From Promethearchaeati archaeon (GTDB lineage: Archaea > Asgardarchaeota > Atabeyarchaeia > Atabeyarchaeales > Atabeyarchaeaceae), in NCBI GenBank assembly GCA_019058495.1, contig JAHPYV010000007.1:1-33043 (forward strand): DNA of 33,043 bases. Direction: 5' to 3'. Under the pieces are notes generated by a model. That model saw only the letters and a program-made list of their open reading frames with translations, searched no databases and was not told where the DNA came from. Shown here one piece after another: positions 5,524 through 21,405 of the stretch (its first letter is position 1; each line of letters begins with the position of its first letter). The translations under genes were made by a program, and so were the position numbers.

Positions 5524-6567
5524 ATGGTGGGCATAGTTGGCGTAGGAGCATACGTTCCTACTTACAGGATAAAATTGAGTGAAATTCTAAAGGCAGACAA
5601 CTACCCGCCGCCCTTAATGGATGTCGAGAAGGCGGTACCGAACATCGATGAAGATGTTGTGACGATGGCGGCAGAAGCAACCACTAACGCCGTTCGTCAT
5701 TCGGGTATATCACCAGAAAAGATCGAGGCTGTCTACTTTGGGACTACCTCAAGTCCCTACACAGAAAGGATGATTGCAACCACGATCGCAGCTCACATTG
5801 GATTGCCCAGTACGGCCACGGTTATGGAATTCGGTGGTTCTGCAAGAGCGGGAACGTCCGCGTTATTGGCATGCATGGATCTAATCAACGCCGGTAGAGC
5901 TAAGTACGGCATAGCTATTGGCGCAGACGGTCTTCTGGGGGCGCCCGGTTCCATGCTTGAATTCTATTCCGGCGCTGGCGCTGGAGCTGTCGTAATCAGT
6001 AAAGAGAACACCGTAACGGAGTTTGAAGGCGCAAGCTCTTCTTCCTCGGAGTTCGCTGACAAGTGGAAAAGAATCGGAGACCCATATGAAAGGGATAGCG
6101 GAGACGACAGGTTTTCTAGGGAGTATGGTTATACCAAAGCCGTAGTTGAGGCGGCCAGCGGCTTGATCAAGAAACTTGGCAAGACTTCGAAGGACTTCAA
6201 GTATGTAGTGCAGCAGATGCTACCCTTCGGCATTGATCCTTCTAAAGGGATAGACGCTTCTAGGAAAATCGGTTTCGAGATGTCAAATCTGATGCCTGGA
6301 GTGACGTTCAACTCTTTTGGAGAAACCGGAGCTGCATACGTATTGCTGGGCCTTGCGCAGGTCTTGGAACAATCAAAAGCAAATGACAGGATCATGCTAT
6401 TGTCGTATGGCGGAGGGTGCAGTGATGCTATAAGTCTGAAGGTGGCTCCAACTGCAGAAAGTAGAAAGAGTGCATTCTACTCAATGAAGAATTTCCAGAA
6501 GTCGAAGGAAATAGTAAACTACATTCAATACGTCAAGATGAAAGGAATGTTTGTGGCGAGCCCTTGA
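5524..6567 (+). CDS. HMG-CoA-synthase-like thiolase-fold protein lacking the expected catalytic triad
   Basis: The 347 residues have the length and fold markers of archaeal hydroxymethylglutaryl-CoA synthase: N-terminal MVGIVGVGAYVPTYR, DEDVVTMA, and a C-terminal LLSYGGG. Genuine archaeal enzymes, as I recall them, carry Glu in G-S-E-S, the nucleophile in A-C-K-A-G-T, and His in F-H-Q-P. The corresponding places read GTTSSPY (Thr75), GGSARAGT (Ala107) and VVQQMLP (Gln230). All three catalytic residues therefore appear replaced, and the only cysteine near the site is Cys117 in a helix. The operon (this gene, DUF35, thiolase) is that of the archaeal synthase/thiolase channelling complex, so a structural or altered catalytic role is likely. 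The mevalonate-pathway enzyme may be encoded elsewhere. Confidence 0.8.
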   Translation: MVGIVGVGAYVPTYRIKLSEILKADNYPPPLMDVEKAVPNIDEDVVTMAAEATTNAVRHSGISPEKIEAVYFGTTSSPYTERMIATTIAAHIGLPSTATVMEFGGSARAGTSALLACMDLINAGRAKYGIAIGADGLLGAPGSMLEFYSGAGAGAVVISKENTVTEFEGASSSSSEFADKWKRIGDPYERDSGDDRFSREYGYTKAVVEAASGLIKKLGKTSKDFKYVVQQMLPFGIDPSKGIDASRKIGFEMSNLMPGVTFNSFGETGAAYVLLGLAQVLEQSKANDRIMLLSYGGGCSDAISLKVAPTAESRKSAFYSMKNFQKSKEIVNYIQYVKMKGMFVASP

Positions 6568-6587
6568 AGAGGAGGTTGAAATAGAAA

Positions 6588-7001
6588 ATGTCGATTGCTT
6601 CTCCAATGTTATGGAGGGAGATTCCACAGCTGTATAGACTGGTAGGTCTGAAATGCAAGAAATGTGGTTACATAAACTTCCCGAGAATGGGAAGCATTTG
6701 CATCAAATGCGGTAGCGCAGAAGGATTTGAGGAGCACCACATCAGCAGAAGGGGTAAACTCGTGACTTTCACAGTTGAACATGTTATGCCCCCAGGTTTT
6801 GAGACTCCGACGATTATGACGATAGTCGACACTGAAGACGGCGCAAGGCTTATGGTTTCAATGACACAGGCGAAACCAGAGGAAGTAAAAATAGACATGC
6901 CCGTGGAACTCGTCTTCAGGCGATTCGGCGAGGCCGAAGGACTTCTCAGGTACGGTTTCCGCGCAAAGCCAGTGAAGCAGGCAATGGAAGCTAAGAAGTA
7001 G
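6588..7001 (+). CDS. DUF35 zinc-ribbon/OB-fold protein, partner of synthase and thiolase
   Basis: The N-terminal rubredoxin-like zinc ribbon has Cys23, Cys26, Cys38 and Cys41 (CKKC and CIKC). An OB-fold follows (residues ~50-130), beginning GKLVTFTVEHVMPPGFETP. In archaeal HMG-CoA synthesis the DUF35 protein bridges thiolase and synthase and forms the shared CoA pocket; related subunits bind thiolase-fold partners in PhlB, BbsA and steroid aldolase systems. The length (137 aa) is typical. GGAGG lies 12 nt upstream of the ATG, overlapping the end of the synthase-like gene region (20-nt gap), so the genes are co-transcribed and perhaps translationally linked. This stand-alone form supports a three-subunit complex. 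Confidence 0.88.
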   Translation: MSIASPMLWREIPQLYRLVGLKCKKCGYINFPRMGSICIKCGSAEGFEEHHISRRGKLVTFTVEHVMPPGFETPTIMTIVDTEDGARLMVSMTQAKPEEVKIDMPVELVFRRFGEAEGLLRYGFRAKPVKQAMEAKK

Positions 7002-7047
7002 AAAGAACGAGCAAGAACGATTCCCTTGGTAGGGGTGTGAGAATGAT

Positions 7048-8220
7048 ATGAAGAACAAAGTCGCAGTTGTAGGTTTTGGGATGATCAAGTTCGGGGAACT
7101 TTTCGAGAAGAGTTATGAAGACATGATGAGCGAAGCATATCTGAACGCCCTTAAGAGTGTTGACAACGGAATTGATCAAAAGGAGATCCAAGCCGCATGG
7201 CTCGGAACGTGCATCGGCAGCATAATAAAACGAGAGATTCTAACTGGAGCCTCACTCGCTGAACCACTTTCATTCATGCCGAGACCAGTCTCAAGGCTCG
7301 AGAATGCTTGCGCAACTGGGTCTGATGCCTTCAGAAATGCTTGCTTCGCTGTTGCCTCAGGAGCATACGACGTAGCCTTGGCACTCGGAGCAGAAAAGAT
7401 GCGTGATGTTCCTCCAATCGAGTCTCTTCAAGGAGTCGTCGCAAGGGGCATGCATCCAATCTATGCGAGGGGAATGACCGCACCGGCAGTATTCGCATTC
7501 TATGCAAACAGACATATGCATGATTTCGGAACCACAAAGCAGCAGATGGCTTACGTCGCTGTTAAGAACCACAAGAATGGAGCGCTAGACCCATATTCCC
7601 ACTTCCAGAGACCCATTAAACTCGAGGATGCTCTAAAAGCGCCAATGGTCTGCTCCCCACTTGGTCTCTTTGACTGCTGCCCCGTAACCGATGGGGCTGC
7701 TGCAGTAATAATCACACGTGCAGAACTCGCTAAGAAGTACACAGACACACCGATCTACGTTGCAGGATTAGGCCTAGCCACAGACACATTCAACTTGGCT
7801 TCAAAACCAGACTTCACCACGTTCTACGCAACGGTTGAAGCCGGTAAAGAAGCCTACAAAATGGCTGGCATTGGACCTGACGACATAGATTTAGCTGAGG
7901 TGCATGACTGTTTCACAATAACGGAGATCTTAGACACAGAGGATCTGGGGTTCTGCAAGAAAGGGGAAGGAGGAAAATTCATAGAACAGGGCAACACGGA
8001 GATAGGCGGTAAGATCCCGATAAATCCAAGTGGCGGCTTGAAGAGTAAGGGGCACCCTATAGGCGCAACAGGGGTTGCCCAGATATGCGAAATATCATGG
8101 CACCTGAGAAATGAAGCAGACAAGAGACAGGTTAGTGGCGCCGAAATTGGGTTAACACACAACTTAGGTGGCACAGGCTCGGTAGCGAGTGTTACAATAC
8201 TATCTAACAAACAGCTGTAG
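7048..8220 (+). CDS. Thiolase-family acyltransferase (acetyl-CoA acetyltransferase / SCP-x type)
   Basis: The 390-residue thiolase has the catalytic nucleophile Cys88 in ENACATGS, His286 in EVHDCFTITEI, and the general-base loop GGLKSKGHPIGATG with His336. The last motif is HNLGGTG rather than the CxGGG of biosynthetic thiolases, as in archaeal and SCP-x-type enzymes. The active site thus looks intact, unlike that of the synthase-like partner upstream. It probably condenses or cleaves acyl-CoA with acetyl-CoA. A GGGGTGTGA ribosome site precedes the ATG by about eight nt, and the gap from the DUF35 gene is 46 nt. It may supply acetoacetyl-CoA, or be the catalytic subunit of a different ketoacyl-CoA reaction. 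Confidence 0.88.
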   Translation: MKNKVAVVGFGMIKFGELFEKSYEDMMSEAYLNALKSVDNGIDQKEIQAAWLGTCIGSIIKREILTGASLAEPLSFMPRPVSRLENACATGSDAFRNACFAVASGAYDVALALGAEKMRDVPPIESLQGVVARGMHPIYARGMTAPAVFAFYANRHMHDFGTTKQQMAYVAVKNHKNGALDPYSHFQRPIKLEDALKAPMVCSPLGLFDCCPVTDGAAAVIITRAELAKKYTDTPIYVAGLGLATDTFNLASKPDFTTFYATVEAGKEAYKMAGIGPDDIDLAEVHDCFTITEILDTEDLGFCKKGEGGKFIEQGNTEIGGKIPINPSGGLKSKGHPIGATGVAQICEISWHLRNEADKRQVSGAEIGLTHNLGGTGSVASVTILSNKQL

Positions 8221-8370: not shown

Positions 8371-10041
8371 CTATTTTGAGCTTTTGGACTTTTCTTCCTC
8401 TCTAAGGGAGACCTTCACAACTTTGCCTATAAGCGTCAGGGGCAGCTCCTTTCTAAACTCTATGATCTTTGGAACCTTGTATGGTGCAATCTTGTCCTTT
8501 ACAAACTGCGCGATTTCTTGTTTTAGTTTCTCGCTTTGTTCGTAACCTTGTTTCAGAACGACATACGCCTTTATTCTCTCGCTTCCTGGACGTTCAGCGT
8601 CTGGAAGTCCAACTGTTGCAGCCATCATCACTGCAGGGTGTTCACATAATAGATCGTCAACTTCTCTGGGGTACACCTTCAGTCCGCCAACGTTAATCAT
8701 GTCCTTTGTTCTGTCGACAATGTAGATGTAACCCTCTTCATCCATCCTTGCTACATCACCTGTGCGGACCCAGCCGTCGCCAATCAGTGATGCTTTAGTT
8801 TCCTCGGGCCTATTCCAATACCCCTTGAACACTTGTGGTCCTCGAACTAGAAGGTCACCAGATTCCCCCAGTGGAACTTCTTTGTCCTTTGTACCAATTT
8901 CAACGATCTTCACTTCGGTGCTCGAAAATGGCATTCCAACTGAGCCAACCTTCCTTGGATGCTCAAGGGGATTTCCAGTAACGAGCGGGGAGCACTCCGT
9001 TAAACCATACAGTTCAATAACCCGTTTTCTGGTTGCTTTCTCGAATTCCTTTATGACTTCCGCCGGAAACGGAGCCGCCGCGCTTATGAAGTATTTGACC
9101 GAACTGAAGTCGCACTTCTTGAAATCAGGGTGCCGAAGCATCAGCATATACAGAGTACTTACGTTGGCGAGTACCGTCGGCTTCTGCTCGTTGACGAGTT
9201 GGAAAATCAAGGGTAGATCCCTAGGGTTAACAACTAGTGCTTGCTGACAGGCCAATTGCACCGCGGCAGTGCATGTCAATGTACCAGCTATGTGGAAGAA
9301 CGGGAAACCGGAAACCACTGATTCTTTTCCTTTTTCCCAACCAAGCCATGTGGCGGTTTGGTTCATGTTTGACAAATGATTGTAGTGTGTTATCAGAGCG
9401 CCTTTGGGTAGACCCGTTGTTCCACCTGTATACATAAGAAAAGCGGGTGTTTCCTTCAAGTCAACCTGAATATCAGGCGGGTTTGGCTTATACTCGGTGA
9501 TGAGCTTAACAAAGTGGATCGCACTTGGTATCTCCTTGGGTTTTGCTAATGATCCCTCCGGGAAGTCACTCAGTCCTGCTGAAATGATGTGTTCAAGCTT
9601 GGTCTCAGGTTTGAGGGCGTTAACCATCTTCACATACATTTCCGCTGACACGATAACTCTCGCGCCAGAATCTTTGAGTTGATGTTTCAGATCCCACTCT
9701 TTCATCATGGGGCTTACACACATGACTACAGCGCCAGCTTTCCATGCTCCCCACATTGTGATTGGGTAGTGTGGAAGGTTAGGCATGTGCAGTCCAATGA
9801 TGTCACCTTTCCTTACGCCCATAGCTACGAAAGCAGTGGCGAGTCTGTCGGCGTAGTCCTTGAACTCTCGGAACGTTATCTTCCTTTTGTAGAATACGAG
9901 AGCGGTTTTGTCTGGAAATTCTTTTGCTATATCGTCAAGGATTTTGTGCAATGGTGTTTTTGGTTCAGGTAACTTGGCGGGAACATGTTTATCATAATTC
10001 TTCAGCCAGATTTTAGACTCGTATGGAGACTTCTTACTCAA
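8371..10041 (-). CDS. Long/medium-chain acyl-CoA ligase (AMP-forming, ANL superfamily)
   Basis: The enzyme activates a carboxylic acid to acyl-AMP and then acyl-CoA. Visible motifs in order: P-loop YTGGTTGLPKG (about residues 204-214), FFHIAGT, ELYGLTECSPL, the hinge region TGDVARMDEEGYIYIVDRTKD, GGLKVYPREVD, and a C-terminal Lys in LTLIGKVVK. The length (556 aa) is normal for the family. TTG at 10041 was chosen because GGAGGAGAGG lies 5-10 nt before it; the upstream ATG at 10077 has no such site. It is convergent with the thiolase gene and probably feeds acyl-CoA to the cluster. Chain length or aromatic preference cannot be read from sequence alone. It shares a divergent promoter region with the TPR gene. 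Confidence 0.88.
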   Translation of the reverse strand: MSKKSPYESKIWLKNYDKHVPAKLPEPKTPLHKILDDIAKEFPDKTALVFYKRKITFREFKDYADRLATAFVAMGVRKGDIIGLHMPNLPHYPITMWGAWKAGAVVMCVSPMMKEWDLKHQLKDSGARVIVSAEMYVKMVNALKPETKLEHIISAGLSDFPEGSLAKPKEIPSAIHFVKLITEYKPNPPDIQVDLKETPAFLMYTGGTTGLPKGALITHYNHLSNMNQTATWLGWEKGKESVVSGFPFFHIAGTLTCTAAVQLACQQALVVNPRDLPLIFQLVNEQKPTVLANVSTLYMLMLRHPDFKKCDFSSVKYFISAAAPFPAEVIKEFEKATRKRVIELYGLTECSPLVTGNPLEHPRKVGSVGMPFSSTEVKIVEIGTKDKEVPLGESGDLLVRGPQVFKGYWNRPEETKASLIGDGWVRTGDVARMDEEGYIYIVDRTKDMINVGGLKVYPREVDDLLCEHPAVMMAATVGLPDAERPGSERIKAYVVLKQGYEQSEKLKQEIAQFVKDKIAPYKVPKIIEFRKELPLTLIGKVVKVSLREEEKSKSSK

Positions 10042-10099
10042 ATTGCGCCTCTCCTCCTGAATGTGATGTATTACCATGACCTAGTATTTTACCTTTGGG

Positions 10100-10185: not shown

Positions 10186-11238
10186 TTGGGTGAAGACGTC
10201 GAGAAACTAAAAGCTGAAGCCGAGAAATACCGTTCAATGAAAGTAAAACACGCAGCAGCCCAGAAACTTTTCGAAGCGGCATCATTATTACATGAGAAAA
10301 ACGAAGAAGCTGAAGCCCTCAAACTACTTCTTGAAGCGATAATGCTCGCTGAGGAAGTGAAAAGCCAAGCAATGGAGGATTTCTTCGAAGAGGCTGCCGC
10401 AAAACTCGACGATATGAAACAACCCAAGTTGGCTGCAGAGAACTATATCAAAACCGCGAGAATTCACACGAACAGGAAAGATCATAAGAGAGCCATCGCA
10501 CTTTTCCTCAAGGCTGAGGAGGCATATAAGAAAGCAAACCTGCCTGCAAACGCTGCAGGCTGCTTCAGATCAGTGAGCGAGGAATATGAGAGCCTAGGTG
10601 AACCTGTATTGGCGGCGCAGTACATTGAGAAGGAAGCTGACATAAGGCTTCAGTTGAAGGACACAAATGGAACAATAGGAGATCTTAACGACGCAAGAGG
10701 ACTCTATGCGAAGATTGGACGGTTCGATGAGTCAGCACGATGTCTCAAGAGAATTGGAGATCTCTTCGCTCAAACAGAAGATAGGAAGCAAGCTGAAGAA
10801 TACTATCTTCTTGCTGCTGAAGACTTGCAGCGAGCAGCAGAAGAAAGTACCAAGGTGGACGATAGTAGTCCGGCAATTGGCTTTCTGCTGTCGGCCGCTT
10901 CGATATATCAAAAAGGCGGAAGATTCAAAGAGGCAGCTGGTTGCCATCTGCGTTTAGCAGAGTCGTACGTGAAGAGTGAAGATGCAAGCGAAGCATCTGA
11001 AAACTACAGGAAAGCGGTAATAGAGCACCTACTCGAAGAGGACCTAAGAACTGCCAAAACCATAATAGATGGTATCAGAGATGAAAAAGTGAGAAGCACA
11101 CCCGCTTTCAAACAGTCTCAAAGCATAGTAGAGATCTTTGAGAAGGGTGACGAAGCGAGAATGAATAGCGCGCTAAAAGAGATCAATGATTTTAGCTGGG
11201 TTCGACTATCCCTTGCATTTGGGAGATTCATGAAATGA
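10186..11238 (+). CDS. TPR/SNAP-like helical repeat protein
   Basis: The 350-residue protein consists of helix pairs of about 40 residues, each with an A-x-x-Y/F or AA-x-x-Y pattern (AAENYIKTARIH, AAGCFRSVSEEYE, AAGCHLRLAESYV). There is no signal peptide or membrane helix. The long repeats, with patterns such as KDHKRAIALFLKAEEAYKK and many ARC/AGC turns, resemble the helical solenoid of alpha-SNAP more than short canonical TPRs; that similarity is impression-level. It probably binds proteins in the cytoplasm. The start is TTG with AGGAGG ten nt upstream. It is transcribed divergently from the acyl-CoA ligase and convergently to the KaiC-like gene. Confidence 0.75.
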   Translation: MGEDVEKLKAEAEKYRSMKVKHAAAQKLFEAASLLHEKNEEAEALKLLLEAIMLAEEVKSQAMEDFFEEAAAKLDDMKQPKLAAENYIKTARIHTNRKDHKRAIALFLKAEEAYKKANLPANAAGCFRSVSEEYESLGEPVLAAQYIEKEADIRLQLKDTNGTIGDLNDARGLYAKIGRFDESARCLKRIGDLFAQTEDRKQAEEYYLLAAEDLQRAAEESTKVDDSSPAIGFLLSAASIYQKGGRFKEAAGCHLRLAESYVKSEDASEASENYRKAVIEHLLEEDLRTAKTIIDGIRDEKVRSTPAFKQSQSIVEIFEKGDEARMNSALKEINDFSWVRLSLAFGRFMK

Positions 11239-20424: not shown

Positions 20425-21405
20425 ATGAAAGAGAAAGAAACTAATAATGGGTTGAGCACAGGGAAAAGAAAGTGCTGTTACATGAATACTTCCGGTTTGA
20501 CTCTCGAGGAGCTAAGTTACCTACTTGGACTATATTGCGCTGACGGTTACTTGTGCAAAAGAAAGAACTCAGCTGGCCTATTCTGGTACCTGCAAGGAAA
20601 CGAGGAAGTAATAGCGAGAAGAGTTGAAGCTTTGCTAGCAAAGACTGGTCTGCGTCCCAGAGTGCACTTATCAAGGCATGGAGGAATAGAAGTAGCTGTT
20701 TACTCGATGAACCTTAGTGAAGTATTTCCAGTCAAGAAGGATGTTCTGAAGACAAGCGTAGCATGGAAATTCCTTGAGAAGTATCTTAGCGTGGACTATG
20801 GAATCCCATTTGCTGCAGGACTCATCGATGGCGATGGTGGTTGTAAAGCCTATTACTATCGAGGATCGTATGGACTTCTTGGATACATTATGTCGAAGTG
20901 GAATTTTAGTCAAACCAAATTTCCATCTCTTTGCGAGTACCTCTATAGATTTGTCGAAACAAATTCGCCAAGCGGCTCAACCATCAGAACTTATCGCAGA
21001 CGAAAGGGTCCCAAGGAAAGAATAGATCGTGCAGTATTAATTCGTAAAAGTGGAATACAGACACTCTTACAATATGGAATCGATAAATATTCCTGGAAGG
21101 TTAGGAAATGGCAACAGCACATCATGGAGTTAGAGGGACGCCTATCAACACTACGGTCAAGCGTTAACACTATTGGTCAACTAGCTCATTTGATAGGTCT
21201 AAGCAGGTCTGCAGTATGGAAATGGTGTAAGACGGGCAAAGTGAAGACATTGCGAGGCGATACAAGAACTTGGTATCTTATCCCCTCAAAGGAGGTTAAA
21301 CGCCTACTCAATGACCCAGCAACACTTGCACGACAGGTCGAGCAGCTCAGAAACTCGAGGTTAGTGTATCCATGGTATACCAATGGTGCAGAGCAGGCAA
21401 AGTAA
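20425..21405 (+). CDS. LAGLIDADG homing endonuclease with C-terminal HTH
   Basis: Two LAGLIDADG motifs are present, as expected of a monomeric homing endonuclease: LLGLYCADG (residues 33-41) and FAAGLIDGDG (129-138), with acidic residues Asp40 and Asp137. A basic linker follows, then an excisionase/MerR-like helix-turn-helix at about 250-295 (LSRSAVWKWCKTGKVKTLRG, then a tyrosine-rich strand and SKEVKRLL). This HTH probably aids DNA targeting. The end, residues 306-326, looks out of frame: a second copy of the HTH continues in the -1 frame (to 21491). The gene is free-standing; no intein or intron splice site was identified. It may start at ATG 20479 instead. It is a mobile-element remnant or a still-active gene with a frameshift. 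Confidence 0.82.
   Translation: MKEKETNNGLSTGKRKCCYMNTSGLTLEELSYLLGLYCADGYLCKRKNSAGLFWYLQGNEEVIARRVEALLAKTGLRPRVHLSRHGGIEVAVYSMNLSEVFPVKKDVLKTSVAWKFLEKYLSVDYGIPFAAGLIDGDGGCKAYYYRGSYGLLGYIMSKWNFSQTKFPSLCEYLYRFVETNSPSGSTIRTYRRRKGPKERIDRAVLIRKSGIQTLLQYGIDKYSWKVRKWQQHIMELEGRLSTLRSSVNTIGQLAHLIGLSRSAVWKWCKTGKVKTLRGDTRTWYLIPSKEVKRLLNDPATLARQVEQLRNSRLVYPWYTNGAEQAK

Follow-up and report, generated by a model that had tools for sequence, protein, structure and literature searches.

We identified a three-gene module in an Asgard genome that probably encodes a 3-ketoacyl-CoA thiolase complex built around a non-catalytic HMG-CoA-synthase-like (HMGS-like) scaffold, with a beta-oxidation-like thiolysis as the most likely reaction. 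The stretch of DNA analyzed here, which we call the window (33,043 nucleotides), corresponds to contig C107 in a bin of 2.88 Mb from an Asgard lineage (completeness 94.4%, contamination 5.85%). The genes for the HMGS-like protein, a DUF35 protein and a thiolase lie in the same direction with gaps of 20 and 46 bp, and their products match the Pfam families Thiolase_N, zf-ChsH2 plus OB_ChsH2_C, and Thiolase_N/Thiolase_C_1, respectively. The features discussed are as follows.

5524..6567, plus strand: HMGS-like subunit, 347 aa, without the active-site Glu, Cys, His and Asn (Thr75, Ala107, Gln231, Glu267) and with Gly269 in place of Tyr
5839..5847, plus strand: codons Ser106-Ala107-Arg108, site of the lost nucleophile Cys114 (6ESQ numbering)
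6588..7001, plus strand: DUF35 protein, 137 aa, zinc ribbon Cys23/26/38/41 and OB fold
7048..8220, plus strand: thiolase, 390 aa, Cys88, His286-Asp-Cys288-Phe and His336 intact
8371..10077, minus strand: long-chain acyl-CoA ligase-like AMP-binding protein, convergent neighbor of the three-gene set

Contamination was rejected as the source of the window on a weak but consistent check, its GC content of 46.3% standing beside 46.9% and 46.5% for contigs C169 and C152 of the same bin. Two further genes of the window are recorded as side observations. The TPR protein encoded at 10186-11238 (plus strand) has a Pfam SNAP match (PF14938, 6e-20) and is alpha-SNAP-like; encoded in an Asgard genome, it may be of interest for its likeness to eukaryotic signature proteins. 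The free-standing open reading frame at 20425-21405 (plus strand) has a weak C-terminal HTH_17 match as its sole Pfam match and by appearance resembles a homing endonuclease.

The HMGS-like subunit retains the synthase fold without its catalytic residues

The closest solved structure to the HMGS-like protein was the archaeal HMG-CoA synthase 6ESQ from Methanothermococcus (198 bits, 2.2e-57), followed by PhlA. An AlphaFold2 model of the subunit (pLDDT 89.7, pTM 0.91) superposed on 6ESQ chain J with a TM score of 0.93 at 35% identity and on PhlA with a TM score of 0.90; together with the 6ESQ alignment, this bears out the retention of the synthase fold proposed in the first-pass annotation. In the alignment, Glu82, Cys114 and His238 of 6ESQ correspond to Thr75, Ala107 and Gln231 of the window protein, and Asn270 and Tyr272 correspond to Glu267 and Gly269. 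Thr75 and Ala107 had been assigned correctly from the sequence, whereas the residue aligned with the histidine is Gln231 and not Gln230 as originally read, a shift that adjoins a four-residue insertion and exchanges one glutamine for another. Cys117, a candidate replacement, lies ten residues past the Cys114 site and was rejected because it aligns with an extra cysteine that many active enzymes carry besides Cys114. The window protein thus lacks all three canonical synthase residues, while 117/117 canonical sequences keep Glu, Cys and His, and the HMGS-like subunit is most likely a pseudoenzyme, presumed non-catalytic on the basis of these sequence comparisons.

A broad Cys-less clade shares the loss

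We gathered 153 relatives, PhlA and MucA apart, from Asgard genomes and named genome contigs. The set Glu-Cys-His-Asn-Tyr was present at the five sites in 117/153 sequences and absent in 36/153, so that the loss in the window protein is no chance event, and all 36 Cys-less relatives carried glycine at the Tyr272 site. Replacements at the cysteine site itself varied (10 Leu, 7 Thr, also Ala, Pro, Glu and others), as expected across a family once catalysis there is no longer selected. One relative, L010, has a cysteine at the nucleophile site but neither the Glu nor the His, and its sister sequences have threonine there.

Other positions are tightly kept. The residue preceding the lost cysteine was serine in 35/36 Cys-less proteins, and Ser or Thr in 36/36, compared with alanine in 116/117 canonical proteins; Glu81 and Gly269 are likewise clade-specific and near-invariant. 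These sites would favor a subunit that remains an enzyme through another residue, such as Ser106, but the His, Asn and Glu that would act with it are gone, and a structural role is simpler. Moreover, Ser106 sits one position before the nucleophile, and the side chain at that place normally points away from the pocket in the thiolase fold, so that we regard this reading as improbable. The disappearance of every catalytic residue could also be taken as the mark of a decaying, functionless synthase paralogue. That reading is very unlikely, to the point of implausibility, given the deep conservation: the frame is open, the operon is conserved across many phyla, DUF35 fusions occur, the clade has invariant sites of its own, and the genome holds two copies.

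In a maximum-likelihood tree of 69 sequences, whose long branches are MucA, L070, L085 and the window protein, a branch with support 100/99, recovered in 200/200 bootstrap trees, separated the Cys-less proteins together with PhlA and MucA from the other sequences. The window protein belongs to a 24-member clade (99/92), and PhlA and MucA share its side of the main branch but stand outside the clade. Archaeal Cys-less members come from Asgard genomes, Njordarchaeum, Methanoliparum and Alkanophagales, and bacterial ones from Chloroflexota, Desulfovirgula, a deltaproteobacterium, Nitrospinae and Armatimonadetes.

The same genome encodes a canonical synthase in a mevalonate operon

The bin contains three synthase-like genes: a canonical, Cys-containing HMG-CoA synthase on contig C169 (G000:C169; 548 bits to TIGR00748), the window gene, and a second Cys-less gene on C152 that has its own DUF35 and thiolase genes. 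The second, Cys-containing synthase that had been sought in the genome therefore exists, beside HMG-CoA reductase, and the contrary case of an organism with no second synthase is excluded. The C169 synthase shares an operon with a thiolase, a DUF35 protein and HMG-CoA reductase, at a locus and in a gene order different from those of the window, whose HMGS-like gene is not in a mevalonate gene neighborhood. The separate Cys-containing operon with HMG-CoA reductase and the second Cys-less operon indicate that the window protein is not a mevalonate enzyme; with its residues lost and the true synthase elsewhere, the original placement outside the mevalonate pathway stands. A run of N with a duplicated segment interrupts the thiolase gene on C152 (L006 1570-2924), probably through faulty assembly.

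Cys-less and canonical forms occur together in 11 Asgard genomes, including that of the window. In six Asgard genomes of one family, the Cys-less protein is the only form of archaeal-type synthase. Two of these six encode a separate synthase of 542-544 aa with Glu, Cys and His motifs (L189 353-1981, L190 870-2504), which has an HMG_CoA_synt_N/C match in one of the two genomes, and three more of the six have a second match in a reading frame about as long. This HMG_CoA_synt_N/C-type synthase has a long Cys-containing C-terminal extension and stands in for the archaeal type.

Public models differ in how they treat the family. The window protein scored 252.8 bits against the TIGR00748 equivalog, below its cut-off of 353, and passed the looser NCBIfam model PRK04262, nominally an equivalog as well, with 293 bits against a cut-off of 244. 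PRK04262 accepted 7/9 of the Cys-less relatives tested, and TIGR00748 rejected the window protein and all nine. Since PRK04262 passes proteins without catalytic residues, the Cys-less clade is likely to be systematically misannotated as HMG-CoA synthase.

An intact thiolase accompanies the presumably inert subunit

The window thiolase carries the full SCP2-type set, namely the nucleophile Cys88, the HDCF motif (His286-Asp-Cys288-Phe) and the GHP histidine His336. Cys88, His286 and His336 are as first read from the sequence, and Cys288 is additional to the residues named then. Cys88, His286 and Cys288 are kept in 22/22 partner thiolases, that of the window included, and His336 in 21/22, the exception being truncated. 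In sequence, the window thiolase shares 44-61% identity with almost all of the partner thiolases listed, compared with 38% for the genome's own mevalonate thiolase; the archaeal acetoacetyl-CoA thiolase of 6ESQ is a homologue as well (280 bits). The 137-aa protein contains the DUF35 domains PF12172 and PF01796 (E values 2.2e-7 and 6.8e-14), with a four-cysteine zinc ribbon of the form CxxC...CxxC whose zinc cysteines are conserved in relatives. The three-part HMGS-like, DUF35 and thiolase set recognized at the outset is conserved as a gene module among relatives. DUF35 forms the C-terminal part of a fusion with the HMGS-like protein in roughly half of the other loci, those of Desulfovirgula, Methanoliparum and Alkanophagales among them, and such fusions argue for physical association.

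From these homologies we infer that, in the source organism, the three proteins would assemble into a complex on the plan of archaeal thiolase-HMGCS (6ESQ) and PhlACB, in which the DUF35 protein would bridge the thiolase and synthase-like dimers. All chemistry would reside in the thiolase, presumably the only catalytic subunit. There, Cys88 would become acylated, Cys288 in the HDCF motif would serve as acid/base, and His286 and His336 would form the oxyanion/activation set, roles that we assume from SCP2-thiolase chemistry. The HMGS-like pseudoenzyme, which keeps its fold and surface, would be needed for assembly, keeping the subunits joined by way of DUF35, and probably contributes to the shape of a shared CoA/acyl site. 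The predicted reaction is thiolysis of a 3-ketoacyl-CoA as a fatty, branched or substituted acid is degraded.

The module differs from known DUF35-thiolase systems

The window contains the same kind of operon set as PhlACB, the PpATase Friedel-Crafts acylase (5M3K, 5MG5; CsATase 9SKH), namely an HMGS-like protein without Cys and Glu, a DUF35 protein and a thiolase-like protein that in PhlACB is the sole catalytic subunit (PMC6392133, PMC12955522). PhlA was named an inactive member of the thiolase superfamily in 2010 (PMC2954200); catalysis in PhlACB is by PhlC residues only, yet all three proteins are required, and the enzyme functions without CoA (PMC6392133). MucABC (9VBO, 9VBT), a set known by structure title and residue, is also multi-component, with an HMGS-like protein that has Glu at the Cys site. 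Given that the three parts agree, that the HMGS-like subunit shows the same loss, that PhlA and MucA fall on the Cys-less side of the tree and that Gly at the Tyr272 site is shared with them, the window complex could be a CoA-independent C-acyltransferase that moves acyl groups between small molecules. Several differences make this quite unlikely. The window thiolase keeps the full HDCF set, whereas PhlC depends on His56, Tyr124 and Tyr298 besides Cys88 and His347 (PMC6392133); PhlACB transfers acyl groups to phenols and is encoded in an antibiotic gene cluster, while the context of the module is CoA metabolism. The window proteins are 31-32% identical to PhlACB and on a separate branch, and about 20% identical to MucABC, which acetylates tetramic acids in Streptococcus (PMC10161427); PhlA and MucA, as noted, lie outside the 24-member clade. 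Furthermore, canonical and Cys-less proteins have Tyr10, Trp181 and Tyr203 in common, but PhlA and MucA carry other residues at these positions; with PhlACB being CoA-independent, the three common residues may serve CoA handling. A three-component homologue from Thermofilum pendens was inactive in a formylation test (PMC12955522).

Archaeal thiolase-HMGCS 6ESQ shares the subunit types, the fold and the thiolase Cys/HDCF/His set with the window, but its synthase keeps Glu82, Cys114 and His238 and makes HMG-CoA. Benzoylsuccinyl-CoA thiolase BbsAB (7PXP) likewise pairs DUF35 with a thiolase for 3-ketoacyl-CoA thiolysis but has no HMGS-like subunit, and the window proteins fell far below the NCBIfam BbsA and BbsB equivalog cut-offs (54.8 versus 250 and 211.6 versus 750 bits). 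The Ltp2/Sal steroid side-chain aldolases also consist of a thiolase fold bound to DUF35. Retro-aldol chemistry of the Ltp2 type, initially listed as an option, is disfavored because the window and 21 partner thiolases have HDCF where these aldolases have YDHF/YDCY (PMC12329534).

Gene neighborhoods of some relatives suggest acyl-CoA breakdown

Neighboring genes were listed at 22 related loci and a selection of them identified. In Desulfovirgula (L070) and Armatimonadetes (L116), genes for acyl-CoA dehydrogenase, 3-hydroxyacyl-CoA dehydrogenase (3HCDH) and enoyl-CoA hydratase follow or surround the module. The gene directly upstream in Asgard genome G005 encodes a subunit of an ADP-forming acyl-CoA synthetase. 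In a deltaproteobacterium and a Chloroflexi genome, the module adjoins genes for B12-dependent acyl-CoA mutase, which hints at branched or rearranged acyl-CoA substrates; the absence of a complete beta-oxidation set at these two loci counts against the thiolysis reading. These mutase genes, from two bacterial phyla (L081 10510-15336, L045 3-2054), encode one or two large subunits, a small subunit and, in one case, MeaB. The Asgard group G013/G029/G037/G056 has no telling neighbors and no beta-oxidation genes adjoining the module, and neither beta-oxidation genes nor a reductase partner adjoin the window operon itself. Elsewhere, the window genome has about 10 acyl-CoA dehydrogenase, 13 hydratase and 4 strong 3HCDH matches, and on its contig C47 (L147 1539-5201) a DUF35-thiolase pair, without an HMGS-like gene, diverges from 3HCDH and enoyl-CoA hydratase genes; this thiolase is 49% identical to that of the window.

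The AMP-ligase gene faces the window operon stop to stop, with 150 bp between them, and among the identified neighbors of related loci an AMP-binding protein was seen only at L081. The ligase is thus not a conserved neighbor, and we discarded it as a fixed partner; the earlier suggestion that it feeds the complex is not supported.

The gene context of the relatives gives moderate support to the beta-oxidation direction. Thiolases are reversible, so the synthesis direction is possible too, and the homologous 6ESQ thiolase, also with HDCF, works in synthesis. The complex could accordingly carry out a biosynthetic Claisen condensation to acetoacetyl-CoA or a longer 3-ketoacyl-CoA, the synthase-like subunit pulling or channeling the product. 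We consider this rather unlikely, as the genome has a separate mevalonate thiolase-synthase operon, oxidation genes cluster with some relatives, and the window operon, as described above, has no adjoining reductase partner.

Implications for the family

Beyond a thiolase with an inert scaffold, a more speculative and unlikely proposal is that the emptied pseudo-synthase pocket, with Ser106, Glu81 and Gly269, forms a second acyl/CoA chamber that sets substrate range or couples thiolysis to a neighboring step, which would make the module an unrecognized, widespread three-part enzyme class. The literature we found contains no biochemistry for any member of the Cys-less clade, and we found no earlier description of a wide Cys-less clade tied to HDCF thiolases in the open-access literature. 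The module had been put forward as undescribed: this appears to hold for the broad Cys-less family tied to acyl-CoA metabolism, but not for the principle of an inert HMGS-like subunit, for which PhlA and MucA are precedents.

The label HMG-CoA synthase hides a probable acyl-CoA thiolase system, and such misnaming can yield false calls of the mevalonate pathway in Asgard archaea, whose lipid and isoprenoid metabolism bears on ideas about the origin of eukaryotes. Within the family, PhlA and MucA stand next to a wide clade with ties to acyl-CoA metabolism, and the presence of an active and an inactive synthase in one genome offers a clean comparison for the role of the inert subunit.
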